The position numbers were made by a program, and so were the translations under genes. Shown here piece by piece: positions 46 to 28,842 of a stretch of 30,602 bases of DNA; positions within the stretch are counted from its first letter, which is position 1, and each line of letters starts with the position of its first letter. The DNA comes from a virus, in the IMG/VR virus record IMGVR_UViG_3300034418_004552, positions 1-30,602 of that record. One strand, given 5' to 3'. The notes beneath the pieces are model-generated. The model was given only the letters and a program-made list of their open reading frames with translations. It was not told the DNA's origin and did no database searches.

Positions 46-3000
46 ATGGCAAACATTCAAAGAAATTTTATAGCGGGCCGTATGAATAAAAGCCTTGATG
101 AAAGGCTTGTCCCAAATGGAGAGTATGTGGATGCTTTGAATGTAAGGCTTGGTTCTACTGAAGAATCAGAAATAGGTGCTGTTGAAAATGCTAAAGGAAA
201 TATACCATTAACAGAGCTTCAGTACGTAGATGGAACTAAATTAAGTTCTTCTGCTAAATGTATTGGTGCGTTTGAAGATGGAGCTCAGCTTGTTATTTAT
301 TGGTTTGTACACGACCCTGCGTTTACACAAGGAGCTACAGGTAAATTAGATTTAATTGTTTCTTATGACGTTGAAACAGGAGAACTAATTTATCATGTTG
401 TTAGTATAGATGATGGTAATGGTATAAATACAACTTTAAATTTTAATCCAAACTTTTTAATTACAGGTGTGGATAAGATTGAGAACTTATTATTTTTTAC
501 TGATAATACAAATCCACCAAGAGTAATAAATATAAATGAAAATTATGGTGACCCGCAGCCAGGGGTGTTAACAGATGGGTTTAATAAGGATGATATATTA
601 GTTATTAAAAAACCTCCCACTAGTGCTCCGAGAATTGAAACATATTATGCGCCTGCCCAAGACGACGCTTATTTAGAAGATAAATTTATTTGTTTTGCTT
701 ATAGATATAAGTATGAAAACAATGAGTATTCAGCTATTTCTCAATTTACTGAGCCCGCTTTTACACCAGGAGCTTTTGATTTTAGTGTTAATAGTTACCT
801 AAACGAAGGAATGATTAACAAAGATAATGCTGTAACTATTTATTTTAATACAGGTGCATCTAAAGTAACTGATATACAAATACTTTTTAAAGAAGCTGAT
901 TCTAGTGTTATTAAAATAATAAGGAGTATTAGCAGAGCTCAATACGGTGTTAATCAAGAACAACAAATAACATTTACAAAAAGAAAAATATTTAGTGTTT
1001 TACCTGATTCTGAAATATTAAGATTATATGATAACGTTCCTCAATTAGCAAAAGCACAAACATTAATGGCTAATAGGCTTGTTTATGGTAACTATACAGA
1101 GGGTTATAATTTTATTACAAATGAAGGTGGTAATGTAAAATTTGATTTTACTACAACTTTAAAATCAGAAGAAATAAATTTATCTAATCTTCCTGTTAAT
1201 ATTTCACAAGGTTATTATTCTATTGATTTAACTTCGACACCTACTACTCCACCACCTATTTACATTGATGATAGTAATATGATGATTGATTTAAGCTCAT
1301 TAATTATTTCAAGTGGTTCTAAATTAAAAGCTGGTTCATCTCTTACTTTTTCATTTGGATTTGAATATAGCAGTTCAGTCGTAACAGGAGGAGGCCCAGC
1401 AGCTACTCCAGGGAATCAAAACTATTATGTAAACTGGACTTATACTTTACAACAAGATTTTGACACTGTTTATGATTTAGTAAATAGCACAGATTTTTAC
1501 GACAAAGTAGGTAGCCCAACATCTATACAAACTGTTTCAAACGCAGAAAATGGAAACACATTAACTGATGTATTTAATTTAGCGTTACCTCAATCTTTTG
1601 ATTCTAATTATACACAATTAAATCAAACAGGTGTATCAAGTTTAACGCCAGTTCCTGCATCTGGAGCTGTGGGTGAGCCAATTATTAGAACAAATTACTC
1701 AATTGGAAGTAATACATTTGGTCTTCAAATTTTAGCTGCGGTTTATTATGACCCAGTTTCTTTATCATATTTATTTACATATAATAGAATTACTGATGCC
1801 ACTGTTACTTTTCAATCATCTGCAACAGCTAGAAGTTTACATAGTAACAGAGGTTACGAGATAGGAATGGTGTATATGGATGATTACAACAGAGCTTCTA
1901 CTGCTCAGGTTAGTGAATTAAATAGTGTAAATCTTCCATGTAACTTATCTACCTCAAGAAATTATATTCAGGTAAATATACCTGAAGAGCAAAAAGCCCC
2001 TTATTGGGCAACAAAATATAAGTTTGTAATAAAACCAACAGCAACAGATTATCAGACGATATATAGTAATATAGTATACAGAGACTCGGGTACTGGAGCT
2101 AGTTATTTTTTACTTGATGGGGAAAACGCTAATAAAGTAGAATCCGGAGACAAGCTAATTGTAAAAGCTGATGCTAGAGGTCCAATGAATAGATGTTCGA
2201 TTGCAACTGTTTTAGAAAAAGAAGCTAAAACTGCAGGGTTTATAGATGTTTTTGATGCTGCAGGAAACGAAATAGAAGTGTTTGGGGGAACTTACATGAA
2301 GATAAATGCTTCAAATTTTGCTGCTGTTGAATCTAATGATGCTATTGTTTCTGTTCCTGAGAAAAAAGCTATTTGTAAAGAGGACACTTTTTATCCAGTT
2401 GTAGCATTTCCATTTTTTACAGCTACTAATCAATCCGGTTCAGCTCCAGTTTATGATGTGTATGATGTTCCTGTAGGAACTAGAATTACAATGCGTATTG
2501 AGTTTCAAAGGAATGGAGGGTCTGCAACGATTGGACCTACTTGTCAAAGACAAAATTACGTTTTAGAAAAAAGCTTTACTGCATCAAGAAATTACACTAA
2601 TATGATAGATTGGTTTAACGGAGATAACGTAGACCAAACTTTAAATGAGGGAGTTGAAGATACAACTGGTGAAATTTCAATAGATACATTATATATTCCT
2701 GCAACAAATTCAGTGGCTGCTCCGCCTCTCGGAGCTGTTAATATTTACACGTCAGACAAAAAAAGTAAGTCAGAAATTGCAAATGCTAATTTATTTGGAG
2801 CTACAGCTAATGACCCTGAAGAAACTTTTTATTTTAGAATGTTTGAAGATACAGCAAACCAGGACGCAAATAGTAAAAATTTAATTTATTTACTTATATC
2901 TGGTGGAAGAGCTTGTGGAGGAACAACTAATAAACGTTCTGAATTACAAGTGTCTTTTACAGTATATAGAACTGACTCTATGTATGTTTTTGAAACTCAG

Positions 3001-4983
3001 CCAACAGATGCTTTGCCTGATGTTTGGTATGAAAACAGTGAATCATTTAACATAAATGGTAATTTACATTTAGGAAATGTGCAAAACCAAACTACAAGTC
3101 AACCTGCTATTGTAAACACGGGATTTGCAAATTGTTTTTCTTTTGGAAACGGAGTAGAAAGTTACAGGATTAGAGACTCAATAAAAGAACCAGCATTTAA
3201 TTTAGGTAATAGAATATTCACAACATCAAACGAAGAGTATAAAGCAGCGCATAGGTTTGCAGATTTAACATATAGTGGAGTTTACAATGATGAGTCAAAT
3301 GTAAACAGACTTAATGAGTTCAATTTAGGTTTATTGAATTTTAAACCATTAGAAGAAACGTATGGTGATGTAGAAATATTGTATGCAAGAGAAACAGATA
3401 TACTTGTCTTACAAGAAGATAAAATATCTTATGTGCTTGCGGGTAAAAACATATTATCAGATTCAACTGGAGGTGGGCCAGTAACATCTGTTCCTGAAGT
3501 ATTAGGAACGCAGATAGCTAGAATAGAAAATTATGGTATAAGTAATCACCCTGAAAGTTTTGCAGAATTTGGTGAAAACAAATACTTCTCTGATGCTAAA
3601 AGAAATGTAATTGTAAAATTAACTGGAAGCTCGGCTCAAAACGAAATACTAACAGTTATTTCTAGTCAAGGAATGAGAAGTTGGTTTAGAGATTTATTTG
3701 CTGACGCTTCAGCTACTCAGAAACTAGGTGGTTATGACCCATACATGCACGAATATGTGTTTACTTCTAACACTATAGTTAAACCAGAAACTGAATTATG
3801 TACATCATGTGGTGTGACAAAGAATATAACTGTAGTTGCTCAACAAGAGTTTGTTTATTGTGTTGATGTAAAACAAGAAGTTGGGACTGTTTATATAGAT
3901 TATGTAATACCTTTTGAAAATTCTGATTTAATTGTAACCGAAGGAACTCAGCAGCAGATTGTTTCTGAAGCTGGTGTAGATTTAGAAACAGAAGGTCAAG
4001 TTTCAGGAACTGGATACACTATTCAAGCAATATATGATGGTGTTACTTATACTACTGGTGTAGTATATCAAAGTGGAACATTATCATTTAGTAAGCCAAA
4101 TTCAGTTCCAACGGAAGTGGTTTTAATAGTAACTACAGATTCATCGGTAAACGACACTATTCAAATAACTGTAAAATGTCCTGGTCCTGAACTGTTTAAT
4201 GTTTACAGTATTACATTATCAACTAATGCAATTGCAGGTCAATTTACACATACAGAATTTTATTGGGAAAAAGGAACAGTTATATCTCCAACTCAATCAG
4301 ATTTAGTAACGTTATTAAATAGCCCGAATGACCCTATAGTTTCACAATATAGAGAACTTGAAGGAGGTCAAGGGGCAAATGTTATTCCTCAAGATGGAGC
4401 AATAATTACAATGAGGTCTAATAAAATTAATTTTGATAATTTCCAGTTTGACCCTAACGAAAATGAGTTTAGATATTTAAGAACAGACGCACTATATGAA
4501 AACAATTCAACTGATATAAATATATTATTAGCAGCTTCTATTGAGGCAACTCCAATTAATACAGCAGGCGCTCCTAATTTGTATAAAGCTAATTTTGCTT
4601 TACCAAATGGTGGTGACAAATTATATTTAATATATGATTTAAGAAAATCTATTGGACAAGAGCTTTGTTATTCACCGCTCAGTTTCTTTGAATCTTGTTG
4701 TGATTGTACGTTTAGTCCAACCCCAACCCCAGCGCCATCACCAACTCCAGCACCAGCAGTACCAACATACGATTACTTTATAGGTATAGATTGTGTAAGC
4801 CTTCAGGCTGTTTATTTAAAAGCTAATACAACATTAGGTATTGTAGTAGGAAATGAAGTGCAATACACCAGTGGAGGAACAACAATGGGTTGTGCTTCTT
4901 TATATGCTACGGGAGGTTCTGGTGTAAATGGTGAAGTAGTGGTTTTAGTAGCAGGATGTGGAGATTCAAGATGTTCAACATAA
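46..4983 (+). CDS. Tail stabilisation/hub-like virion protein with C-terminal Pro-rich linker and Cys module
   Basis: This 1645-aa protein is a large virion protein. Its N-terminus carries the signature GRMNKSLDERLVPNGEY (residues 11-27), followed by DALNVRLGSTEESEIGAVEN. This opening is typical of phage proteins annotated as P22 gp10-like DNA-stabilisation or tail-hub proteins in podoviruses and crAss-like phages. The middle is beta-rich, with no enzyme motif seen. Near the C-terminus a Pro-rich linker (about 1557-1574) leads into a last module of about 70 residues that begins YDYFIGIDC and ends in a Cys pair (CGDSRC). That module resembles those of the next gene and of the fibre-like gene at 12079. 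The ATG at 46 lies one base past the upstream stop. The hub role is inferred from the N-terminal signature and gene order; the C-terminal extension looks like an acquired fibre-like module. Confidence 0.6.
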   Translation: MANIQRNFIAGRMNKSLDERLVPNGEYVDALNVRLGSTEESEIGAVENAKGNIPLTELQYVDGTKLSSSAKCIGAFEDGAQLVIYWFVHDPAFTQGATGKLDLIVSYDVETGELIYHVVSIDDGNGINTTLNFNPNFLITGVDKIENLLFFTDNTNPPRVININENYGDPQPGVLTDGFNKDDILVIKKPPTSAPRIETYYAPAQDDAYLEDKFICFAYRYKYENNEYSAISQFTEPAFTPGAFDFSVNSYLNEGMINKDNAVTIYFNTGASKVTDIQILFKEADSSVIKIIRSISRAQYGVNQEQQITFTKRKIFSVLPDSEILRLYDNVPQLAKAQTLMANRLVYGNYTEGYNFITNEGGNVKFDFTTTLKSEEINLSNLPVNISQGYYSIDLTSTPTTPPPIYIDDSNMMIDLSSLIISSGSKLKAGSSLTFSFGFEYSSSVVTGGGPAATPGNQNYYVNWTYTLQQDFDTVYDLVNSTDFYDKVGSPTSIQTVSNAENGNTLTDVFNLALPQSFDSNYTQLNQTGVSSLTPVPASGAVGEPIIRTNYSIGSNTFGLQILAAVYYDPVSLSYLFTYNRITDATVTFQSSATARSLHSNRGYEIGMVYMDDYNRASTAQVSELNSVNLPCNLSTSRNYIQVNIPEEQKAPYWATKYKFVIKPTATDYQTIYSNIVYRDSGTGASYFLLDGENANKVESGDKLIVKADARGPMNRCSIATVLEKEAKTAGFIDVFDAAGNEIEVFGGTYMKINASNFAAVESNDAIVSVPEKKAICKEDTFYPVVAFPFFTATNQSGSAPVYDVYDVPVGTRITMRIEFQRNGGSATIGPTCQRQNYVLEKSFTASRNYTNMIDWFNGDNVDQTLNEGVEDTTGEISIDTLYIPATNSVAAPPLGAVNIYTSDKKSKSEIANANLFGATANDPEETFYFRMFEDTANQDANSKNLIYLLISGGRACGGTTNKRSELQVSFTVYRTDSMYVFETQPTDALPDVWYENSESFNINGNLHLGNVQNQTTSQPAIVNTGFANCFSFGNGVESYRIRDSIKEPAFNLGNRIFTTSNEEYKAAHRFADLTYSGVYNDESNVNRLNEFNLGLLNFKPLEETYGDVEILYARETDILVLQEDKISYVLAGKNILSDSTGGGPVTSVPEVLGTQIARIENYGISNHPESFAEFGENKYFSDAKRNVIVKLTGSSAQNEILTVISSQGMRSWFRDLFADASATQKLGGYDPYMHEYVFTSNTIVKPETELCTSCGVTKNITVVAQQEFVYCVDVKQEVGTVYIDYVIPFENSDLIVTEGTQQQIVSEAGVDLETEGQVSGTGYTIQAIYDGVTYTTGVVYQSGTLSFSKPNSVPTEVVLIVTTDSSVNDTIQITVKCPGPELFNVYSITLSTNAIAGQFTHTEFYWEKGTVISPTQSDLVTLLNSPNDPIVSQYRELEGGQGANVIPQDGAIITMRSNKINFDNFQFDPNENEFRYLRTDALYENNSTDINILLAASIEATPINTAGAPNLYKANFALPNGGDKLYLIYDLRKSIGQELCYSPLSFFESCCDCTFSPTPTPAPSPTPAPAVPTYDYFIGIDCVSLQAVYLKANTTLGIVVGNEVQYTSGGTTMGCASLYATGGSGVNGEVVVLVAGCGDSRCST

Positions 4984-5007: not shown

Positions 5008-7857
5008 ATGCCGGCAACAACAGCTACATATTATTTTAGTTCTTCGAGTTTCTCGAACGCTACTGCATTATATACTGATGCGGCATTATCAATTTTTGCA
5101 CCTGATGGATGGTATTCAGACCAAAATATTTACAGACAGCAAGCTGCTGGAGTATTATTTGCAGAGACTTCGTGTCCTAATTGTTTATCACCGTCACCTA
5201 GTCCTATACCAACGCCATCGCCAACGCCATCGCCAACGCCATCGCCAACGCCGTCGCCAACGCCAACGCCGTCGCCATCGCCAACGCCAGCACCTGTAGT
5301 TAGCTATGACTATAGATTGTATGCTCAATGTAGTGGAGCTGCGACACAAGTATTTAGAGTTATTTCCGGTGGAATATTTCCACCTGTAGTACAATATGAT
5401 GGGATATGTTGGGAAAACTCAAGCTCAACTGTTTTAACATCAACTATAGATGTAGCAGGTTTACCAAGTTATGCGGATTGTGCTACATGTATTACTCCAT
5501 CACCAACTATAACTTATGATTATAGAGAATACACGGAATGTAGTGGAACAGCTACTCAAGTGTTTAGGGTTCCATCAGGAGTTTCGTTTGCACAAGTTGT
5601 AAAATATTTAGGAACTTGTTATGAAAACACTCAAGCGACTACTTCTATATCTAATGTAGATATTTCAGAAACATATACAGATTGTGTAAGTTGTCTACCG
5701 ACTCCATCTTATGAAATATTTTCTACAAACACTGTACAAAACGGTGTAGGTTCTTCAGTATTAGCGTGTCAAGCAACAACAGCATATAGTATGTTTACTA
5801 GTAGAACTAATGTAGCTTCAATTCAAGTAAATGATGTGGTTTATACAAACGCTACTTTAACAAATACTTGGAATGGAAACAGTTTTTGGTATGGAGTAAC
5901 TGATAATAGTGGAAATGTTCCAAATAATGCAAGTGGATTTGCTTTATTAATTAATTCATCTGGTGTTGTGACTGTGAAAACTACCTGTGTAGCTCCGTCG
6001 CCAATACCAACTCCTACTGCAACGCCAACACAGGATGTTGAAATAAGACAGTGTGGTACTACAAGCCCAACTTATCTAGTAAGAATTACTGGAACATCTG
6101 GATATTTAAGTGGACAATCAATAGAAATAACTGGAGCAGCAGCTGGAGGTAATCCAGAATTTACAGGTGCAACTTGTTATGAAATTATAGACGCAGCTGC
6201 ATCTTCGTATAATTCTACTGTTACAGTTAACTCTGCGTATAGTAGTTGTAATGGATGTGCTCCAACTCCAATTTATGAATACAATGAATACACAGAGTGT
6301 CAGACATCAACAACACAAATTTTTAGAAAACTTACAACAACATCAACTTGGCCAAGTTTTGTTCAGTATAACAATATTTGTTATTCAAACCGACAATCAA
6401 CAACAGGTACTTCATCTATAAGTGTTGAACCTCTTACAAGCTTTAATAACTGTTTTGATTGTGAAAACCCATCAATGTTTATTAATGGTTTACCACAACA
6501 AGGATATACAGAAGCTGCGGCTTGTAATGCTAGAACAGATTACTTTGTTTTCTCTGATAGAGCAACGGTTGGTCAAATTATAGTTGGAGATACATTATAT
6601 GCTAACTCTTCAAAAACTACAGTATTTAACGGAGGTTTAGAATGGTATAGTATTTCAAACACTTTAGGTCTTTTACCACAACCTTCAAATGATAAATATT
6701 TAATTAATTCATCAGGTGTTGTTCAAACTATAAAAACTTGTGCTGTAGTTCCTTCACCTACTCCGACAACTGCGCCGCCTCCAGTAACTCAAGAAATATC
6801 AATAGTGAGTTGTGGTACAACAAGCCCTACATACCATGTTGAAGTAACAGGAAGTAATAGTTTAACTGTGGGATTAGGTATTAAAATAAGTTCTGGTGGT
6901 ACGACTGGTGGATGTCCAACGTTTGATACATCTCAATGTTATGAAATTACAGCTGTAAATATTGGCTTCCATAATTGTCAAGGTGTACTTGATGTTGTGA
7001 GCAACAATTGTTCTAATTTATCAGGATGTTCTCCATCACCGACTCCAGCGCCTAGCCCAACACCGACACCATCACCAACAGCAATTTCGTATCAATATTT
7101 AGATATAACAAGGTGTGATGGAGGTACAAATAATTATACAATTGTAAGAACTTCTCCTGGGACGTTCCCTACGAACAGTTCAGTGTTAATGCCTGATGGA
7201 TTTTGTTATGAAGTAACCGACCCTTCAGCTAGCACAACTACTCAAGAAGGATTAGCATGGTATACTTCTTGTATAGCTTGTGCATCCGCTACATCACCAT
7301 CTCCATCACCGACTCCAGCGCCAGTGGTTTCAACATACTATTTTTTAATTGATAGATGTGATGGAAGTGCTGGAACTTACACTGAAATGGCTTCAACTTC
7401 TATTTTATCTCCAGGTACATCAGTAAAAATGGATGACGGATTTTGTTATGAAGTACAAAATGCTGTAGGAGTAATAAACTCAAATGTTCCACTGTCTACT
7501 TTCGCTGATTGTACTGCTTGTGAAATAACTGTTCCGACACCTAGTCCGACACCTAGTCCTAGTCCAACACCTAGTCCTAGTCCGACGCCTAGTCCGACAC
7601 CTGCGCCTACACCTGCGCCTACAGTTGCATGTAACCTTATTAATTTGGAGTTTGTAGCAAGCGTAAATAATATTGTATGTGACAACTATGAGTTTTACTA
7701 CGCAAACACAACTGATTTATGTACTGCATCACTTTTATATAGAACTCCAACTTGTGATAGAGCTGCCTTAGCAGGTTATTATAACAACGGAAGCTTCTAC
7801 AGATATTGGAATGGTTCATCGTTTACATCCTCTTGTACAGCAACAACTTGTCCATAG
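5008..7857 (+). CDS. Modular Cys- and Pro-rich tail fibre/adhesin-like protein
   Basis: This 949-aa protein is a string of small domains joined by Pro-rich linkers. Residues 1-59 form an N-terminal module ending CPNC. A linker of alternating Pro with Ser or Thr covers about 61-96. Modules with four conserved Cys, in the pattern C...C[YW]E...CxxC, occur at about 100-161, 170-229, 345-417, 423-485, 596-674, 697-758 and 776-838. A second module type, about 90 residues long with a conserved INSSGVV near its end, occurs at about 235-327 and 488-578. Further Pro-rich linkers lie at about 675-691, 763-772 and 843-871, before a last Cys-rich module. No signal peptide or enzyme motif was seen. Position in the late block suggests a virion surface fibre or decoration protein; host binding is inferred. 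The linkers are the obvious candidate substrates for the modification cassette that follows. Confidence 0.6.
5209..5290 (+). repeat. 12-bp in-frame tandem repeat encoding a Pro-Thr-Pro-Ser linker
   Basis: The unit CCAACGCCATCG occurs three times exactly from 5209 and once with one change, then continues as imperfect half-units. Each unit encodes PTPS. The tract is far more GC-rich than its surroundings. Because the unit is a multiple of three, gain or loss of copies would change linker length without breaking the frame. Confidence 0.85.
7534..7620 (+). repeat. Second Pro-rich linker repeat, built from different codons
   Basis: This tract encodes nearly the same alternating Pro-Thr/Ser/Ala peptide as the tract at 5209. 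It uses mainly CCT, AGT and ACA in place of CCA, TCG and ACG. The difference in codons suggests that the two linkers expanded independently rather than by a recent copy from one to the other. Confidence 0.8.
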
Positions 7858-7910
7858 TTTTTCATTTTAAATAATTATCATTAACTTTATTTGAAATTAA
7901 ATTAAATCAA

Positions 7911-9221
7911 ATGGAGGAAATAAATAATTTTTTATCTGCAGATGAATGTCAGCAGTTAATAAAAATGATTGATGCAAACCACACACGTTCATCAGTTGTA
8001 GAAGGTGGCACTGACAGGACAGCTGTTACAAATCATCGAACATCCAGCACATCAAATCTTGATATGCAAAATTCTTTAGTAAAAAATATCCAAAGTAGAA
8101 TAGCAAAAGAATTGAATATTGAACTAATAAAAGGAGAAGCTCTACAAGGACAGTTGTATGAGCCTGGTCAATATTTTAAACCTCATAATGATTTTTTTAG
8201 TGGACCTGCTTATGATATGCATTGTAAAGCATCTGGGAATAGAACTCACACTTTAATGATTTATTTAAATGATGGCTTTAAAGGAGGTGGAACAAGCTTT
8301 CCTAATTTAGGAAAAGTTGTTGTACCGGAAACTGGTAAAGCTATATGGTGGTATAATATGGAAGATGGAAAGCTTCAAGATAAATATTTACATGAAGGTG
8401 TTACAGTGGATGAAGGAAAAAAATACATTGTAACATCCTGGTGGAGGGAAAAAAACTGGAATGGAGCTAGTGATGAAAAGCTATATTTAGACTCTCAAAA
8501 AGAACAAATTGTGAAAAAAGTTGACCAACCAGTTGAAACTAAAATTGTTGAAGGTATGCAAAATAAATCATACATTGTTAAAGCGTCGCAAGCTGAGGAA
8601 ATAAAAGAACCTGTATTAACTAAAAATTTTAGTAACGTAACAGACTTCCCAAGATTTACAGAGAATGGTTTTTCTTTAATAAAATGCCCTACAGATACTT
8701 GGAATTTAATTAGAGAATCTTATGAGTTATTAAAAGATAAAACAGAAGATGAAAACTTTGCTGGCAAGCAAGAGTTTATAGTAGGTGGCGAATCTGAAAT
8801 AATGTCTTTTGACCATTTACCTACAGTAAGAACAATGATACACGACCAGCTTTTACCTACGCATCAAGAATGGGTAAAAGAGCCGCTTTTAAAATCATTC
8901 ATATATGGTATACGTTCATATAAAAAAGGAGCAACACTTACTTCACACGTAGATAGAATAGCTACACATCACATTTCATCCATAATTATAGTTGATAAAG
9001 ATTTAGCTTGTGGCTGCTCAAACAAACCAGAGGCTGATGATTGGCCACTAGACATACAAGGTCACGATGGAGAATGGTATAAAGTTTATGCTCAACCTGG
9101 AGATATGATATTATATGAATCAGCTGTGTGCGAACACGGAAGAAAAGAAGTTTTTGGTGGAACACATTTTAGAAACTTTTATGTACACTATAAATTAAAA
9201 GACTGGAAGTATGTCGGATAA
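7911..9221 (+). CDS. Two-domain 2-oxoglutarate/Fe(II) oxygenase, prolyl 4-hydroxylase-like
   Basis: This 436-aa protein carries two oxygenase domains. Residues 1-180 match the prolyl 4-hydroxylase catalytic family: the iron-binding HxD is H92/D94 (FKPHNDFF), the conserved RTHTLMIYLND is at 111-121, a GGGTSF follows, and the distal H161 and 2-oxoglutarate-binding K171 lie in HEGVTVDEGKKYIVTSW. Residues 245-436 are a second domain with HVD (346-348), PGDMILYESA (396-405) and distal H409 with R421. This pattern is seen in another oxygenase group known from algae and aquatic microbes. All iron ligands are present in both halves. The expected reaction is hydroxylation of a prolyl residue, using O2 and 2-oxoglutarate, in the host cytoplasm. 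The gene opens a run of four overlapping genes and sits between two Pro-rich virion genes, which suggests those as substrates. The target is inferred, and a non-protein substrate cannot be excluded. Confidence 0.85.
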   Translation: MEEINNFLSADECQQLIKMIDANHTRSSVVEGGTDRTAVTNHRTSSTSNLDMQNSLVKNIQSRIAKELNIELIKGEALQGQLYEPGQYFKPHNDFFSGPAYDMHCKASGNRTHTLMIYLNDGFKGGGTSFPNLGKVVVPETGKAIWWYNMEDGKLQDKYLHEGVTVDEGKKYIVTSWWREKNWNGASDEKLYLDSQKEQIVKKVDQPVETKIVEGMQNKSYIVKASQAEEIKEPVLTKNFSNVTDFPRFTENGFSLIKCPTDTWNLIRESYELLKDKTEDENFAGKQEFIVGGESEIMSFDHLPTVRTMIHDQLLPTHQEWVKEPLLKSFIYGIRSYKKGATLTSHVDRIATHHISSIIIVDKDLACGCSNKPEADDWPLDIQGHDGEWYKVYAQPGDMILYESAVCEHGRKEVFGGTHFRNFYVHYKLKDWKYVG

Positions 9222-10269
9222 ATACATTTCTATTGAACCTTGGTGGGCAGGATTTGCTAACGTAAGGATGTCATTAGAAATAGGTCTGGCTATATCAGAG
9301 CTAACCAATCGAAAGTTTATAATACCACCTGGTATTTACTTTAATGCAATAACTCCTTGGGATAAAAAAGAAACTTATATAAATCCTTTTGATATATGGG
9401 ATGAGAATGTGTTTAAACAAACCTTTAATACAGTTAATTACACCGATATACCAGAGTACGCAGTTTTAAACGGACAAACATATTTTACTGGGGTAGATAA
9501 GTTTGCAAAGCTAATGTTGTTTGATGAAGTTTATAAAGAACTACACCCTCTTCATAGTTGCATTGGTTTTGTTTTAACAACAGACGTTAAGGATATAGAA
9601 GACTATAATAAGTTTGCACAGGGAAGAAAACAATATAATCTACATCAAGAAGATAAATTCATACACTTTCCTAGAAATTTATTTGGTCATTTTTATCACA
9701 GCGTATATGCAGCAAGTGATAATAAAAAGAAAGAAATTAAATCTAAAATGTTAAATGGTTTTAAATTTAAACAAGAACACATAGAGGCTATAGATTTTAT
9801 AAAGCAAGCTCTTGGAGCATACAATGCAATACACATAAGACGAGGAGATTTTATAGATACTAGACCACACACTGTTCCGCTTCTTGAACAAATACCAAAA
9901 TTTCTTGATAAACATTTATTTAAAAATAATTTACCACTTTACATTGCGACTGATGAAAAAGATAAATCAATATTTAATTTTTTAAAAGACAAATATGAGA
10001 TATACTTTTTAGACAATTTTATGCAAGACCTTACACCACTTAAGGCAACTATATATGACCAGATAATTCCAAGTTATTCATTTCAGTTTCTTGGCAGCGT
10101 GATGTCTACATTTACAGATTACATACACGTGAATCGTGCAAGTATGGGAGTGTTTACAAATCCAAGAGTTGGTTGTAACTTTGATAAACCAGAGCTTATC
10201 TACGACAAGTATCCTTGGGAAGAAGAGGAATGGGGTTGGGATAATTTATACAGATATTATTGGGAATGA
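9211..10269 (+). CDS. O-fucosyltransferase-like glycosyltransferase
   Basis: This 352-aa protein shows the main landmarks of the GDP-fucose O-fucosyltransferase superfamily. The N-terminal GFANVRMS (14-21) precedes a conserved helix and KFIIPP. The nucleotide-binding HIRRGDF is at 208-214, LYIATDE at 243-249 and FLGSVMSTFTDYIHVNR at 293-309. Such enzymes transfer L-fucose from GDP-fucose to Ser/Thr or sugar acceptors. Here the gene two places downstream should make GDP-L-galactose, which differs from GDP-L-fucose only by a 6-hydroxyl, so L-galactose is a plausible donor sugar; this is inference. No membrane segment or signal peptide was seen. The gene overlaps the oxygenase gene by 11 bases and the next glycosyltransferase by the ATGA junction, so co-translation is likely. 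Overall similarity to any one subfamily cannot be judged by eye. Confidence 0.7.
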   Translation: MSDKYISIEPWWAGFANVRMSLEIGLAISELTNRKFIIPPGIYFNAITPWDKKETYINPFDIWDENVFKQTFNTVNYTDIPEYAVLNGQTYFTGVDKFAKLMLFDEVYKELHPLHSCIGFVLTTDVKDIEDYNKFAQGRKQYNLHQEDKFIHFPRNLFGHFYHSVYAASDNKKKEIKSKMLNGFKFKQEHIEAIDFIKQALGAYNAIHIRRGDFIDTRPHTVPLLEQIPKFLDKHLFKNNLPLYIATDEKDKSIFNFLKDKYEIYFLDNFMQDLTPLKATIYDQIIPSYSFQFLGSVMSTFTDYIHVNRASMGVFTNPRVGCNFDKPELIYDKYPWEEEEWGWDNLYRYYWE

Positions 10270-11093
10270 GCACTATATTAGTTAGTATAGCATCTTATAA
10301 AGACTCTGAGCTTTTGCCTACGATAAAAGACTGTATTAGTAAAGCAAAAAACCCAGGACGAATATATTTTGGAATATGCGAACAAGATGAAATATCAAAT
10401 AATGAATTAGAATCAATACCTAATTTAAAAAATTTATTTGTTTATTATAAAGATTCTAAAGGACAAGGTTGGCATAGAAATCAAATATATAAACACCTTT
10501 ATGAAGGTCAAGATTATTGTTTGATGATTGATAGCCATAGTAGATTTGCTGAGGATTGGGATGAAAAATATATTAACGCTTTAAATTCTAGGCCAGATAA
10601 AACTATATTAACAGGCTTTCCGCCACACTATGGTATTGGAGAATCATACAATCACTATGCTAAAGCAAGACCTCATAATACATATAACTATCCTTTAGAA
10701 ATAGATTCTTGTTATAAAATTTCTGGCAAAGGAACAGGGTTTAACGGTGAGTATACTGAAACAGTTTGCGTCAGTGCAGCTAATATATTTTCAACAGGTG
10801 AATTTACTCAAGAAACATTGTATGATGAATACCTACATCCTTTTGCTGAACAAGAAATTATTTCCTGCTTAGCATATCAACACAATTATAAAGTAGAAGT
10901 TATGAAACAAGCTTTAGTTTGGCATTGTTATTATAATAATTTACCTGGAAGTGAGGAGAAGTATAGAATGTTGCCTTTTGAAGAAATTAAAATTCAAGGA
11001 TATGAAACGTGTTTTGTACCTTTGTTAGATAAAAGAAAAAGTTTACGTTCTGCAACGGAATGGACACAGCATATTTTAAAATTTAAACAATGA
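10266..11093 (+). CDS. GT60-like glycosyltransferase (GlcNAc-transferase family)
   Basis: This 275-aa protein resembles the GT60 family (Pfam Glycosyltransferase (GlcNAc)). That family includes Gnt1, which adds GlcNAc to hydroxyproline on Skp1 in Dictyostelium, and related protist mucin-type transferases. It opens with STILVSIASYKDSELLPT and then has a GQGWHRNQIY segment. The metal-binding DSHSRF motif is at 89-94, followed by LTGFPPHYG, FAEQEI (193-198) and WHCYY (219-223), all in family order. The length is that of the catalytic core only. The start is taken as the ATG at 10266, which overlaps the previous stop as ATGA; a TTG six bases upstream is less likely. Next to a prolyl 4-hydroxylase, its likely acceptor is hydroxyproline. 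The sugar donor, UDP-GlcNAc in known members, is not proven here. Confidence 0.75.
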   Translation: MSTILVSIASYKDSELLPTIKDCISKAKNPGRIYFGICEQDEISNNELESIPNLKNLFVYYKDSKGQGWHRNQIYKHLYEGQDYCLMIDSHSRFAEDWDEKYINALNSRPDKTILTGFPPHYGIGESYNHYAKARPHNTYNYPLEIDSCYKISGKGTGFNGEYTETVCVSAANIFSTGEFTQETLYDEYLHPFAEQEIISCLAYQHNYKVEVMKQALVWHCYYNNLPGSEEKYRMLPFEEIKIQGYETCFVPLLDKRKSLRSATEWTQHILKFKQ

Positions 11094-12055
11094 AAAAAAT
11101 AGTAGTATTAGGAGCTGGTGGTTTTATTGGTTCTCATTTAGTTAACAAATTAAAGTCTATGGGTAACTATGTAATTGGCATAGATGTTAAACTCCCTGAG
11201 TTTAGTTTAACAAAAACAGACGAATTTTTTCAAATAGATGCAACAAATTTTCAGCAGTTAGATAAAGCAATACAAAGCAATGTAGATGAAATATATCAAT
11301 TAGCTGCTGACATGGGAGGGGCAGGTTATATATTTACAGGTGAAAATGATTTAAATGTTATGTTGAATAGTGCTACAATTAATTTAAATATAGCAAGAAT
11401 AGTAAAAGAAAAAAATATACCTATGGTTTTTTTTAGCAGTAGTGCGTGTATATACCCGGAACACAACCAGATGGATGCAGACAACCCTAACTGTGAGGAG
11501 TCATCTGCTTATCCAGCTAATCCAGACTCAGAGTATGGTTGGGAAAAACTATTTAGTGAAAGATTGTATGCAGCTCTTGCCAGAGACAATGGGACAAAAG
11601 TAAGAATAGCTAGATACCATAATGTGTTTGGGCCAGAGGGAACTTGGCAAGGTGGAAGAGAAAAAGCACCAGCTGCTATATGTAGGAAAGTATTAACAGG
11701 AAAAGATGAAATTGAAATATGGGGAGATGGTAACCAAACCAGGAGTTTTTTATATATAGATGATTGTATAAAAGCAACAGTAGATTTTTGCAACAATGAT
11801 GTTCAGTTTCAAGGACCTATAAATATAGGTAGCGAAGAAATGGTTTCTATTAACACATTAGTAGACTATGCTTGTGCGGTCGAAGGTAAAGAATTGAAGA
11901 AAGTACATATACCCGGGCCGCTCGGTGTGCGTGGTAGAAACAGTGATAACAATTTATATAAAAAAAAGGTTAGTATAACCGATTACGCAAGGCCTTTAAA
12001 AGAAGGTGTATCGCTTACATACGCTTGGATTAAAAGTCAACTAAATAATTCGTAA
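11090..12055 (+). CDS. GDP-mannose 3,5-epimerase
   Basis: This 321-aa extended short-chain dehydrogenase-type epimerase closely follows the plant GDP-mannose 3,5-epimerase pattern. It has an N-terminal NAD-binding GAGGFIG (8-14), LAADMGG (71-77), SSACIYPE with catalytic C120, Y149 and K153 of the YxxxK pair, GGREKAPAA with K192, WGDGNQTRSF, and PGPLGVRGRNSDNN near the end. The catalytic Cys and Lys pair separates this enzyme from simple 4-epimerases. The reaction converts GDP-D-mannose to GDP-L-galactose, with GDP-L-gulose as by-product. Its partner is likely the fucosyltransferase-like enzyme two genes upstream, which uses GDP-sugars. It starts in the ATGA overlap with the GT60-like gene and ends the cassette. 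GDP-mannose would come from the host. Confidence 0.88.
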   Translation: MKKIVVLGAGGFIGSHLVNKLKSMGNYVIGIDVKLPEFSLTKTDEFFQIDATNFQQLDKAIQSNVDEIYQLAADMGGAGYIFTGENDLNVMLNSATINLNIARIVKEKNIPMVFFSSSACIYPEHNQMDADNPNCEESSAYPANPDSEYGWEKLFSERLYAALARDNGTKVRIARYHNVFGPEGTWQGGREKAPAAICRKVLTGKDEIEIWGDGNQTRSFLYIDDCIKATVDFCNNDVQFQGPINIGSEEMVSINTLVDYACAVEGKELKKVHIPGPLGVRGRNSDNNLYKKKVSITDYARPLKEGVSLTYAWIKSQLNNS

Positions 12056-12078: not shown

Positions 12079-13827
12079 ATGGCGTGTAGAAATATAAGAT
12101 TTTCTTGTCCAATTGGAGCAGATACTTGTACTTGGACAGTAGAGTGTTGTGATGGAACAAAGTATAATTATGAGCTTGATGAAAATAACACGGAAGACCT
12201 GTGTTTAACACAAGGCTCAACAATACTTTTGACATCTCAATATGGTTCTTGGAATGACACCAGTCAAACATGTCTTACTAATTGTGGTGATGTAGACCCT
12301 ACACCAATTGCAGGTTATGAATATTATGAGTTTGATGACTGTAATAGTGGAGCAAAACAAATTTTTAGAGCATCTTTATCTGTCCCTGTTTTAATACCTA
12401 ATGTTGTTAGATATAATTCAGAATGTTGGCAAAATCCCACTTTAACAAATACTACTTCTAATGTTGATATAAGTTCATTACAAGGTTTTGTTGACTGTGC
12501 TTCATGTGCAGGTGTTCCAACTCCGCCAACTCCACCAAGTCCTCCAACACCTGCTACTACACCAGAATATTGTTTGGTTCAAACTAATACTGTAACTATA
12601 GAAGAAATAGATTTATCAGCTATACCAGGAGCAACTAGTTCAAGAGCTTATGTTTTCAATGGAGCTTTAGGTATTTATAAAGTACAATTAGGTCAGTATA
12701 CTTTAAGTGGTGTTCCTTCAGCACATCCAATAGCAATTCTAAACTATGGTGTTGACACTTTAATATCATACACAGGACAATACAATGCAGGAACAAAGAC
12801 TGGGCCTGATGGATACAGCTACACCTATTACTATGGTGATATAACTATAAATGTAAACGGTGACTTTGGAGCAGTAAGCTATGCGTGTTACTTCCACGGA
12901 TATATGGGAGGTGAAAATAATTTAAGATATGACTCGACATGTCCATCACCAACAGACCCTACACCTGTAGCTCCAACCCCAACACCAGCGCCAACGAGTG
13001 TTGTGCCACCTATACCATCTCCTGTTGATACAGAGTGGACATTATCATATAGTGATAACTCAGAGGGGTGGCCATCATTCTACTCGTTCAATCCAGATTA
13101 TATGATTGGCATGAATAACTTTTTCTATACGTTTAAAGGAGGAAACTTATACCAGCACAATACTAATGAGATTAGAAATAACTATTATGGCGAACAATTT
13201 AATTCTCAAATATCAAGTGTGTTTAATGCAAACCCTCTTGAAAATAAAATATTTAAAACCATAAACTTAGAATCTGATAATGCTTGGCAAGCGTATATGG
13301 AGACTGATATACAACAAAATGGTATTATAGAAGATGGTTGGTTTGAAAAGAAAGAAGGAGCATGGTTTGCTTACGTAAGGCAAGAAGGAAATGTCCCTGC
13401 TTTTGAAGGGCAATATGCAATGAGGTCCGCCAATGGTATAGGTAAAACTTCAAATGTTTCAGTAGATGGTGGTTTAACTACATTAAGTTTTTCTACAAAC
13501 CCACTTGTATCTATTGGGAATATTATAAGTATTGGTGATTATGTATACCACTCACTGCCTCAATACACTGAGGTTACATTCGGTGGTGTTGTAACTAATA
13601 TACAGGTTGATTTACGAAATGGTTTAAACAATATATTTGTAAGCACTACCTATGATGGAGCAGTAGCCTTTCCACTTAATGACCCATATATAATGTTCTT
13701 AAAAAGTTCTGAGGCTGAATCACATGGTTTACTCGGACATTATTGTATATTTACTATTGTTAACGTAAACACAAATAAGACGGAATTGTTTGCGGTAGAG
13801 AGCGAAGTAATGAAAAGCTATCCGTAA
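12079..13827 (+). CDS. Second modular fibre-like virion protein with a cupredoxin-like domain
   Basis: This 582-aa protein has a Cys-rich N-terminus (1-70) and then a four-Cys module (about 80-143, YEYYEFDDC to CASC) of the type repeated in the fibre-like gene at 5008. A Pro-rich linker follows (147-162). Residues 163-288 form a domain with H215 in SAHPIAI and a closing SYACYFHGYMGGEN, giving the ordered set H215, C270, H273 and M276 that resembles type 1 copper ligands. A second Pro-rich linker (289-315) leads to a C-terminal region of about 265 residues. This region starts at WTLSYSDNSEGW and has FNPDYMIGMNNFFYTF, which is common in structural proteins of phages of this group. A virion fibre or baseplate-associated role is inferred; no enzyme activity was recognised. 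Confidence 0.55.
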   Translation: MACRNIRFSCPIGADTCTWTVECCDGTKYNYELDENNTEDLCLTQGSTILLTSQYGSWNDTSQTCLTNCGDVDPTPIAGYEYYEFDDCNSGAKQIFRASLSVPVLIPNVVRYNSECWQNPTLTNTTSNVDISSLQGFVDCASCAGVPTPPTPPSPPTPATTPEYCLVQTNTVTIEEIDLSAIPGATSSRAYVFNGALGIYKVQLGQYTLSGVPSAHPIAILNYGVDTLISYTGQYNAGTKTGPDGYSYTYYYGDITINVNGDFGAVSYACYFHGYMGGENNLRYDSTCPSPTDPTPVAPTPTPAPTSVVPPIPSPVDTEWTLSYSDNSEGWPSFYSFNPDYMIGMNNFFYTFKGGNLYQHNTNEIRNNYYGEQFNSQISSVFNANPLENKIFKTINLESDNAWQAYMETDIQQNGIIEDGWFEKKEGAWFAYVRQEGNVPAFEGQYAMRSANGIGKTSNVSVDGGLTTLSFSTNPLVSIGNIISIGDYVYHSLPQYTEVTFGGVVTNIQVDLRNGLNNIFVSTTYDGAVAFPLNDPYIMFLKSSEAESHGLLGHYCIFTIVNVNTNKTELFAVESEVMKSYP

Positions 13828-13834
13828 AAATTAG

Positions 13835-13842
13835 TATCTTTG
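13835..13842 (+). promoter_or_regulatory. Bacteroidota -7 box TATCTTTG
   Basis: TATCTTTG matches TAnnTTTG and ends six bases before the ATG at 13849. A transcript starting at the usual distance would begin at or next to the start codon, implying a leaderless or nearly leaderless mRNA. A clear -33 TTG was not found. Confidence 0.5.
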
Positions 13843-13848
13843 CATAGA

Positions 13849-14259
13849 ATGGACTTTAATATAAAAGAATTAAATCCTTCAGATTATGAGGATGTTTTGG
13901 TAGGATGGTGGAAAGATTGGGATTGGCAACCGCCGCCTAAAGATTTTTTACCAAACGATGGAGTAGGAGGAGTAATGGTTACACACAATGACCAGCCTAT
14001 TTGCGCTGGTTTTATGTACATGACCAACTCAAAAGTTTCGTGGGTAGACTGGATTATATCCGACAAAAAAATAGAGGACACCCAGTTAAGACACGAGGCG
14101 GTTAAGTTTTTGATAGCTGTTCTAACAAACATCTGTCAGGAAAATGGAAGTGTTTATATATATGCGCTTTTAAAAAATGATAACTTGATTAAGACATACG
14201 AAGAATTAGGATATATACAAGGGGATAGCAACGCAACCGAAATGATAAAAAAAATATAA
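13849..14259 (+). CDS. GNAT-like acetyltransferase
   Basis: This 136-aa protein has the size and layout of a small GNAT-fold protein. There is an N-terminal strand-helix region, central strands around GGVMVTHNDQPICAGFMYM, and a C-terminal segment NDNLIKTYEELGYIQG that matches the typical acetyltransferase motif B. The acetyl-CoA loop (Q/RxxGxG/A) is not clear, so activity is uncertain. Genes of this kind often sit among phage structural genes, but their target is generally unknown. The start is the ATG at 13849. A TTG nine bases upstream overlaps the promoter box and is less likely. The gene ends one base before the next ATG. Confidence 0.5.
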   Translation: MDFNIKELNPSDYEDVLVGWWKDWDWQPPPKDFLPNDGVGGVMVTHNDQPICAGFMYMTNSKVSWVDWIISDKKIEDTQLRHEAVKFLIAVLTNICQENGSVYIYALLKNDNLIKTYEELGYIQGDSNATEMIKKI

Positions 14260-26442: not shown

Positions 26443-28842
26443 TTAGAAAGCTGGTTCAATGTCTGGTTCTGTTAATTCTATCCATCGACCCGTCATATCC
26501 TTTCCTTCTACAGGAGGGTGACCTGTCGCATATTCTGCATAAGAATGAAGCCATTTATAAAAGACCTGTCTACTTATGGTCATCCTAGATTTCGGTCCAT
26601 AGTCTGGGTATTCATTAATGAAATCAAAGTACAATTCATTCTTGTATATTTTTAAGCCAACCCCTAACTTGTCATTTTCATTTGATTCAGCTAACAATCC
26701 ACACCACTCAATAAAGTCATGAGATGTAGAAGCTGATAGTTGTCTGATTTTAAGATTAACAAACTCACTTTCAATTAAGCCCTCTCTTAAATACAACTGT
26801 AGACACTCAATCATATAGTTATCAAACACACACCACTCATCATCATCCCAATCTCCAAAGAACAATTTACCAAACTCATCCTGTGGTGTATAAGATTTAG
26901 TATAGTGTTGGTATAACTCAAGCTCCCACTTCCTTCTTTGAAAAGAATTACCTGTACCTTTTATGGCATAGTTTGTGGTGATAGCTATCTTAGGGCTCTT
27001 GTTAAATGGTATCTTAATTGCATCCTTATTCTTTTTCTCAAGAGTTAATCCCTCTGTCACCACACTAAACAATCTTTCAAAGTTGAAATACTTCTTGACA
27101 TCATCAAAGCAAAGTATCTGAGTATCCACAGAAACTAACTGGTATGCAAATGATTTCTCAAATGCAAATGCTTTTCCATCTATAGTCACTAACTTTTTCA
27201 TGTGGCTTAAAGCATTCATAAATATACCCTTCCCTGTCCCACCTTCTGGATTGTCTGAGATAACCTCATCATTAAGTATGACCGCTGGACAGTACGATAA
27301 GTTCTTATGACCATGCATTAGAAATCCTATCGTTGACTCCATAGACAGAGTTCTCTTTTCGTTTTGGCCACACACATTATGTATAAATGTTTTATAGTCA
27401 CACTCGGTTATTAGACACTCACGAAACGCCCTGTCAATCACTTGGTCTTTCCAAACATACCCATCAAGGTCTACATAATCTATAGCTGACACCTCGTATT
27501 TCTTAATCTGTACAGCACAATTTTTAAAATATAAATAAGATGTATCCTTAGTATCTTCTATAAAATACACATCAATTGTGTTAATTAATGTAAGAAACTC
27601 CTCTTTAAAGAACCTAGTCTGCTCTGCAAAGTAATTATAAATAGACACATCTTCAATTTGGTACAAGTAGTCAAGAACGAAATCTTTTATCTCTTTCTCG
27701 GTTGAATGGTCTATAAGATTATTAGTTACCCTTACAAATACAAAACTCTTACTACCTTCCGGTGCATACTTATAGAAACCATTGTCTTCTAAAAACTTTT
27801 TAAAATATAATGGCACTATCTTTATAACACCCTTCTCTGTCTTAGTCCAGAACTCCTCATCCTTACCCTCTTCCGCTTTCTTAATAACCGCATCAATAGT
27901 ATACTCTGGTAACTCTGTTCTTTGCAAGTCTTTCTTTACATCTTTCTTTGGCTCACCCCTCTTAAGTCTTTGCTTAACATTGTCAATTATTTCAGTGTTC
28001 TCATAATACTTTGTGTTAAAAAGATGAGTCTTGCTATAAGCTGAATCGATTGTATTATCTATCTCTCTGGATGGAAAGTCTTTTGTTGCATAGTTATTAC
28101 ATATGATAGAGGCAGTTGTCTTGTTAATTCCAAACTCATTTAATGCTTGAGCTATCACATATACATTGTGATTTCTCTGACCCTCTGTCATAGGGTATTT
28201 AGTTTGCCACCACTTGAGAAGTATCTCTACTATCTTTCTCTCGTCTGTAATTTTTAATAGTGGTTGACCTTGTGCTAAATGCTTTTCTTGGTATTCTTCT
28301 TCTTCTAACTTTTCCCATAAATTACTTTTCTGGTTGACATAGATTTGTTTATCAAAACTTTCATAACATACTCTTGATATATTTTTTGATGTAGTATCAA
28401 AGTAAGGAGATGCAAAATGTTTTTTTAGTGCATTGAAATACTTTGTGTGGTTCTCTGAGTCCTTCGGTATCCTTACTAAAACCTTTAATCCATTTCCAGA
28501 AGGTGATACAAAAACTGCAAAGACAAACTTATTTTTTTCAAACTTCGCCCTGTCATCTGTCAGGTCTTTCTTTTTTTCATATCCATCAAAGTCTAAACAG
28601 ATAAGGCCACTATGCTCAACCAGTGCCGAGTCAGACCTCTTATTAAACACACCAGAAAAACATATTGATGGTAATTTTTTCTTAAGCTCGTTCCTCTCTG
28701 ACTTATTCTTTTCGTTTCTTATTCTCTTGACCAGCTCACTATTCTTTCCTTCTTTAATCCTGTCCAGTATAAACATCACATCTCTGTGAAAAGGTGTATC
28801 GGTCTCCAGTATGTTTTTAAATATTGTAACTTCTGTTTTCAA
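26443..28842 (-). CDS. Primase-helicase (VirE-N/BT4734-like primase plus D5-like SF3 helicase)
   Basis: This protein of about 799 aa joins two parts. The N-terminal third resembles the BT4734/VirE-N primase-related domain: CLDFDGYE, SPSGNGLKVLVRIP and SRVCYESFD. A PriCT-like helical segment follows (RNHNVYVIAQALNEFG). The C-terminal half is a D5-like SF3 ATPase with Walker A EGGTGKG, Walker B LCFDDV, motif C KIAITTN and an arginine-finger-like RRKWELE. It probably primes and unwinds phage DNA and is the central replication protein here. No ATG fits the start. The TTG at 28842, directly after an A/C-rich leader, gives the N-terminus LKTEVTIFKN. A TTG at 28884 would add 14 residues rich in Ser and Phe. 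Confidence 0.85.
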   Translation of the reverse strand: MKTEVTIFKNILETDTPFHRDVMFILDRIKEGKNSELVKRIRNEKNKSERNELKKKLPSICFSGVFNKRSDSALVEHSGLICLDFDGYEKKKDLTDDRAKFEKNKFVFAVFVSPSGNGLKVLVRIPKDSENHTKYFNALKKHFASPYFDTTSKNISRVCYESFDKQIYVNQKSNLWEKLEEEEYQEKHLAQGQPLLKITDERKIVEILLKWWQTKYPMTEGQRNHNVYVIAQALNEFGINKTTASIICNNYATKDFPSREIDNTIDSAYSKTHLFNTKYYENTEIIDNVKQRLKRGEPKKDVKKDLQRTELPEYTIDAVIKKAEEGKDEEFWTKTEKGVIKIVPLYFKKFLEDNGFYKYAPEGSKSFVFVRVTNNLIDHSTEKEIKDFVLDYLYQIEDVSIYNYFAEQTRFFKEEFLTLINTIDVYFIEDTKDTSYLYFKNCAVQIKKYEVSAIDYVDLDGYVWKDQVIDRAFRECLITECDYKTFIHNVCGQNEKRTLSMESTIGFLMHGHKNLSYCPAVILNDEVISDNPEGGTGKGIFMNALSHMKKLVTIDGKAFAFEKSFAYQLVSVDTQILCFDDVKKYFNFERLFSVVTEGLTLEKKNKDAIKIPFNKSPKIAITTNYAIKGTGNSFQRRKWELELYQHYTKSYTPQDEFGKLFFGDWDDDEWCVFDNYMIECLQLYLREGLIESEFVNLKIRQLSASTSHDFIEWCGLLAESNENDKLGVGLKIYKNELYFDFINEYPDYGPKSRMTISRQVFYKWLHSYAEYATGHPPVEGKDMTGRWIELTEPDIEPAF

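Follow-up and report, generated by a model that had tools for sequence, protein, structure and literature searches.

A gene cassette lies inside a split crAss-like muzzle

The window (the whole stretch of DNA that was analysed, with all features below on the + strand) is a 30,602-base virus record from a podovirus related to the Cellulophaga phi38:1-type phages and to the Manatee Spring genome. The main part of its muzzle is encoded at 46..4983, a 1645 aa product which matches phrog_14478, a virion structural protein (7e-221), and is homologous to phi38:1 gp97 and the Manatee Spring structural protein ctfjg026. The C-terminal part is encoded at 12079..13827, where a Cys module and Pro-rich linkers are accompanied by matches to phrog_38031 and to the crAss muzzle C-terminal domain PF25729 (2.8e-19, 69.8 bits against a Pfam cut-off of 27). 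In phi38:1 the ends of both products occur in one open-reading frame. The crAss-like muzzle of phi-crAss001 (gp44) likewise carries PF25729 and shares homology with phi38:1-type virion proteins, but the muzzle of the window is divided into separate open-reading frames, with a 949 aa Cys-module protein rich in X-Pro (XP) dipeptides (5008..7857) and a gene cassette (7911-12055, directly 3' of it) between them.

The Cys-module protein, which we propose as the main substrate of the cassette, is an open-reading frame with five XP runs of 4–18 dipeptides each, including an (S/T/I/A-P)18 linker at 5188..5295, an (S/T/A-P)8 linker at 7030..7077 and a (V/T/S/A-P)15 linker at 7531..7620. The linkers are far beyond chance: the longest run has 18 dipeptides, whereas in 2000 shuffled versions of this protein no run exceeded 5. 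A further (S/T/A-P)7 linker followed by a Cys module is seen in the sequence at the end of the main muzzle part (4714-4755). Across the three structural genes 61 XP dipeptides lie in runs of at least four, with Ser (25), Thr (23), Ala (10), Ile (2) and Val (1) at X, and the linkers thus show the clustered, non-contiguous Pro alternating with Ser/Thr/Ala/Val of an arabinogalactan-type glycomodule. In plant hydroxyproline-rich glycoproteins it is prolines in such a clustered, non-contiguous arrangement that carry the glycans (PMC8012813, PMC5651053). The original prediction had placed long SP/TP/AP linkers of fibre proteins next to the cassette; the runs do adjoin it, but their location needed correcting, because the flanking genes encode a crAss-like muzzle in two parts and the linkers therefore belong to a split tail-tip assembly.

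The cassette encodes two oxygenase domains, two transferases and an epimerase

Four co-directional genes make up the cassette, and they overlap as originally described, the first two (7911-9221 and 9211-10269) sharing 11 nt. The N-terminal domain of the first product (7911..8456, residues 1-182) is a prolyl 4-hydroxylase (P4H) by sequence, fold and alignment: it matches Pfam 2OG-FeII_Oxy_3 (4e-14), its nearest solved structures by sequence are the Bacillus P4H (1.8e-24) followed by those of Chlamydomonas and PBCV-1, and the predicted fold (mean pLDDT 81) is also that of a P4H, with matches including, as a close one, the Chlamydomonas enzyme CrP4H with bound (Ser-Pro)5 (3gze), and the PBCV-1 P4H (5c5t). 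Residues H92, D94, H161 and K171, together with R43-T44-S45, are invariant in an alignment of 21 relatives, so that the HxD...H iron ligands and the 2OG-binding Lys are carried on a P4H fold. Whilst the original prediction recognised this enzyme, it missed a second 2OG-Fe(II) oxygenase domain (OX2) in the same gene (8640..9221, ca. residues 245-436), which rests on a match to phrog_2954 and on the alignment, with H346, D348, H409 and R421 kept in at least 90% of relatives. A sequence search of the PDB with OX2 gave no match; its homologue in cyanophage S-SCSM1 is a separate gene, SSCSM1_114, beside an O-fucosyltransferase (O-FucT)-like gene.

The second gene (9211..10269) encodes an O-FucT-like transferase with an HxRRxDF motif. 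The window protein lies below the Pfam O-FucT cut-off (3.6e-6, 27.3 bits against 31.5), with the proteins of relatives L101, L203, L139 and L284 at 61-89 bits, and it matches POFUT2 at 3e-12 (four-sequence profile). The best PDB fold matches of its AF2 model (pLDDT 88.6) are POFUT2 and POFUT1, in partial superposition (TM ~0.55), and the motif residues H208, R210, D213 and F214 are invariant on this POFUT-type fold; fold and motif fit the O-FucT-like identity first assigned. The third gene (10266..11093) encodes a GT60-family glycosyltransferase, as was also first proposed (PF11397, 1e-31, 111.1 bits against a cut-off of 21); its start is probably the ATG at 10266, the alternative being a TTG at 10260. 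The fourth product (11090..12055) had been named a GDP-mannose 3,5-epimerase, an assignment upheld by alignment over its full length to the Arabidopsis GDP-mannose-3',5'-epimerase 2c59 (2.3e-87; Pfam match 6e-43), including the ACIYP and KAPAA stretches, in which the catalytic Cys and Lys of the plant epimerase lie; it is the predicted source of GDP-L-galactose/gulose. Judged by eye, the cassette enzymes carry no obvious signal peptide, which fits action in the cytosol ahead of lysis.

Cassette and linkers occur together in muzzle relatives

The same genes fill the same slot in seven related contigs (L006-L012), two of which are truncated at a contig edge. Combining an IMG/VR search that used the muzzle as query with the other scans yielded 47 dereplicated complete intervals. 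An oxygenase gene was present in 21 of these (the P4H domain in 20, and in L112 the second oxygenase only), and all 21 contain XP runs, against none of the 20 loci that lack the cassette; co-occurrence with Pro-rich linkers in related phages, one of the checks proposed with the original prediction, supports that prediction. The remaining loci have a GT60 cassette without P4H, four with XP runs and two without. On the muzzle tree the correlation needs only 3-4 changes and so represents few independent events, and an independent-pairs test had too few pairs to reach significance.

The composition of the linkers bears on which residue would take the sugar. The transferases might instead glycosylate Ser/Thr of the linkers in a mucin-like manner, the oxygenases hydroxylating, for example, a sugar, or prolines that stiffen the linker and stay unglycosylated. 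The window linkers, with 79% Ser/Thr at X, would suit this reading, as would the GT60-only muzzle cassettes with Thr-Pro linkers and without P4H. Thr is, moreover, the acceptor of the T. cruzi polypeptide GlcNAc-transferase. That enzyme is also included in GT60 (PMC6939170). The relatives with P4H point the other way: X is frequently Ala or Val (Ser/Thr fraction 0.55 when pooled, minimum 0.08), with values of 0.08 in L109, 0.20 in L110 and 0.26 in L045, and in such mainly Ala-Pro/Val-Pro linkers only proline could take the sugar. Cassettes without P4H have Thr/Ser linkers (fraction 0.86; p=0.0075 against the P4H set, in a comparison that ignores phylogeny and has only four loci without P4H), a contrast that would be expected if P4H made the sugar acceptor independent of Ser/Thr. 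Glycosylation of Ser/Thr is in our judgement unlikely, and the pairing of P4H with a further transferase family, described next, also argues against it.

P4H is paired with HPAT-like transferases

The plant hydroxyproline O-arabinosyltransferase family (HPAT), which is hydroxyproline-specific in plants, first came to notice in two bacterial MAG contigs, where HPAT, GT60 and P4H are joined in one polypeptide. Among the window proteins scanned none matched HPAT (Pfam PF23452). In muzzle relatives it occupies the slot held in the window by O-FucT and GT60, with P4H and HPAT in 11 cassettes and P4H, HPAT and an epimerase-family gene in 7 (loci not dereplicated). With the phage HPAT-like alignment as the sole query, a search gave 44 loci, 42 of them with P4H (exceptions L357 and L359), and over all data P4H is present in 58 of 61 HPAT loci, lying no more than three genes away in 27 of the 31 dereplicated cases. 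The presence of HPAT, which had not been anticipated, is the weightiest of the comparative results, and its pairing with P4H speaks against Ser/Thr as acceptor. Ten divergent HPAT-like members were scanned, of which eight were above the Pfam cut-off, one was below it and one had no match, and HPAT was also above the cut-off in L313/L314 and L236; several of the closest members from the muzzle family give no significant match of their own and are joined to the group by profile similarity. In genomes, HPAT was found in 0/14 controls, in 1/369 of one class and in 3/4 of one bacterial family.

Phages are known to modify DNA by means of 2OG oxygenases and glycosyltransferases, and the cassette might in principle decorate bases against restriction, a reading for which a weak, sub-threshold match to a TET-associated glycosyltransferase in relative L203 may be counted. 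We rejected such DNA hypermodification as highly improbable: by sequence and fold the oxygenase is like P4H rather than TET, its partners are protein-type transferases (O-FucT, HPAT), and the cassette sits inside a tail module.

Association with Pro-rich proteins in other phages

Of 40 genes with fused P4H and OX2 (partly from muzzle relatives), 35 have a Pro-rich gene no more than three genes away, compared with 1/12 and 0/19 for two sets of more distant P4H-like oxygenases and 122/1229 (10%) for random genes. For example, in L104, L106 and L107 an Ig-domain protein ending in (TP)(EP)(VP)n lies directly upstream of O-FucT and P4H, and in another context a single-domain P4H lies directly 3' of a large poly-Pro protein. 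Other cassettes include carbamoyltransferases (L034; fused to O-FucT in L101) and GT32-like, GT1 and TibC/GT9-like genes; these extra transferase genes suggest further variation.

The association is one-way, from the cassette to the linker. A scan of viral contigs for XP runs, made independently of the cassette, gave 47 loci with a run of at least nine in an open-reading frame, and only three of these have a P4H-like gene, all weak matches. We rejected the idea that an XP run is enough to indicate the pathway: such linkers are ordinary in phages without P4H and do not predict it. GT60 was likewise rejected as a sufficient sign, as it is frequent in phage loci without P4H and by itself implies no hydroxyproline. 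In cyanophages a P4H-like gene, O-FucT and OX2 are neighbours, yet no XP run lies close to them, a counter-example that is partly resolved by the complete S-SCSM1 genome, in which two annotated virion proteins have long XP runs elsewhere; the other cyanophage contigs searched, which are fragments, showed no long XP run. A last group comprises P4H and HPAT pairs without a nearby Pro-rich gene (L343-L346, L348-L360), some of them in head modules, and systems of this kind are accordingly not confined to XP linkers. The original prediction had counted the regular occurrence of homologous cassettes in phages with no Pro-rich virion protein as evidence against it, and these pairs are in part such a case.

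They are also the kind of locus expected if the cassette acts on a host protein, in the way that bacterial P4Hs modify EF-Tu, on host surface sugars or on another virion protein, its adjacency to XP linkers reflecting module trafficking. The pairs in head modules (L348-L360) and the existence of XP linkers without P4H are in keeping with this, and EF-Tu-modifying or -binding P4H entries are found among the fold matches. We nevertheless give another target little credence, since the cassette tracks XP runs within the same muzzle locus, both where it is present (21/21) and where it is missing (20/20 without runs), its proximity to Pro-rich genes (35/40) far exceeds the 10% of random genes, and the arrangement recurs in unrelated phage types.

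A proposed pathway for hydroxyproline-linked glycosylation

The window appears to come from a marine crAss-like phage with its own enzymes for hydroxylating prolines of its tail proteins and then attaching sugars to them. Comparable sets of genes are found in many other phages, for the most part next to Pro-rich virion proteins. We consider it probable, from the sequence data, that the cassette is a cytosolic, phage-encoded hydroxyproline O-glycosylation pathway for the phage's own tail linkers. The modification of the phage's own linkers, as originally predicted, is partly supported, by gene linkage, linker composition and HPAT in relatives. What we observe is the order of the genes, their domain families, the conservation of active sites and the co-occurrence; each chemical step is inferred. 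The P4H domain would 4-hydroxylate prolines in the Ser/Thr/Ala-Pro linkers of the Cys-module protein and its neighbours, and the second oxygenase may add a further hydroxylation. The first sugar could be placed on hydroxyproline by GT60 (as alpha-GlcNAc, as on Skp1), by the O-FucT-like enzyme or by both, with HPAT the candidate for this step in relatives, and GT60 and/or the O-FucT-like enzyme would begin or lengthen the glycan chain. The epimerase is predicted to convert GDP-mannose to GDP-L-galactose, a plausible donor for the O-FucT-like enzyme because L-fucose is 6-deoxy-L-galactose. At the tail tip the putative product would take the form of extended spacers coated with sugar, which may serve for stiffening, for shielding or for receptor binding; protection or host binding had been suggested originally.

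To our knowledge, hydroxyproline-linked O-glycosylation has so far been a eukaryotic modification. The original prediction stated that no phage system of this kind had been described, and in the open-access literature, outside which most subscription papers lie, we likewise found neither a phage system combining a prolyl hydroxylase with glycosylation nor any hydroxyproline-linked system in phages or bacteria. The hydroxylation and glycosylation of mimivirus collagen act on lysine. PBCV-1 offers a virus-encoded P4H of the same fold (5c5t), but both are viruses of eukaryotes. An unpublished analysis cited in PMC7019647 reports no hydroxyproline in purified PBCV-1 virions, and a viral P4H is thus no guarantee of hydroxyproline in the virion. 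In the Skp1 pathway of Dictyostelium and Toxoplasma (PhyA/Gnt1), a cytosolic P4H is similarly followed by a GT60 enzyme, Gnt1, which acts specifically on Skp1 hydroxyproline, and later by fucose (PMC6939170). That pathway differs in that its target is one proline of a ubiquitin-ligase adaptor, its fucose is added by the bifunctional PgtA rather than an O-FucT-like enzyme, and its enzyme set has no epimerase. Plant arabinogalactan proteins and extensins, modified by P4H with HPAT or galactosyltransferases, share the Pro motif, and phage relatives share HPAT, but the plant modification takes place in the secretory pathway rather than the cytosol, and the window is without HPAT. Mycobacteriophages Che8, Corndog and Myrna also use phage-encoded glycosyltransferases on virion proteins, but at the C-termini of capsid and tail-tube subunits, and excerpts of the two reports mention neither a prolyl hydroxylase nor a hydroxyproline linkage (PMC12619734, PMC12363180).

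We lean towards regarding hydroxyproline-linked O-glycosylation as a widespread, modular form of phage virion decoration, in which P4H would be fixed, HPAT, GT60, O-FucT, GT32-like enzymes and carbamoyltransferases would be interchangeable, and a few bacteria would carry the HPAT-GT60-P4H fusion. Should this hold, a protein modification of plants and protists would exist in phages too, which would change ideas on its origin, and the cassette would offer a simple set of cytosolic enzymes with which bacteria could be made to produce hydroxyproline glycoproteins. Many phage oxygenases and glycosyltransferases now regarded as 'auxiliary metabolic' would then be explained as virion decorators.

Prolyl hydroxylases and Pro-rich proteins in other genomes

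Long runs of alternating X-Pro dipeptides, the proposed substrate of the cassette, occur in two annotated virion proteins of the cyanophage S-SCSM1 (MK867354.2, positions 28463-28788 and 172919-172992), the genome of which also encodes 2OG oxygenases, O-FucT and GDP-sugar genes. In four loci (L249, L275, L283 and L293) a large protein of ~1450-1570 aa, containing contiguous, extensin-like poly-Pro runs, is followed immediately downstream by a single-domain prolyl-4-hydroxylase (P4H) gene, and no recognised transferase adjoins the P4H gene in any of the four. Other phages (L348-L360) carry P4H paired with HPAT, the plant hydroxyproline O-arabinosyltransferase family; no Pro-rich gene was found near these pairs, and those of L348, L349 and L355 adjoin head-module-like genes.

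Two bacterial MAG contigs combine HPAT, GT60 and P4H domains in a single ~1200-aa polypeptide (L313:3418-7020 and L314:9199-12711), neighboured by an O-FucT-like gene, a GDP-mannose epimerase gene and a small Pro-rich ORF, and long HPAT ORFs resembling these were present in three of four genomes of one bacterial family.

Variation in muzzle cassettes and accessory enzymes

Muzzle cassettes of four loci (L037, L044, L071 and L077) encode GT60 and GT32-like transferases without P4H, their linkers are Thr-Pro, and they are possibly a Ser/Thr-linked counterpart. In the window, the C-terminal muzzle part is followed by a small conserved gene (13840-14259); at the equivalent position, the Manatee Spring genome carries a gene with the annotation N-acetyltransferase subunit. 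A radical SAM/SPASM enzyme adjoins P4H and GT60 in L027 (18885-19784, Pfam), and in L285 and L269, where it was assigned from a similar N-terminus. Finally, the fusion of an O-FucT-like domain to a carbamoyltransferase in L101 (899-3454) suggests carbamoylated sugars.
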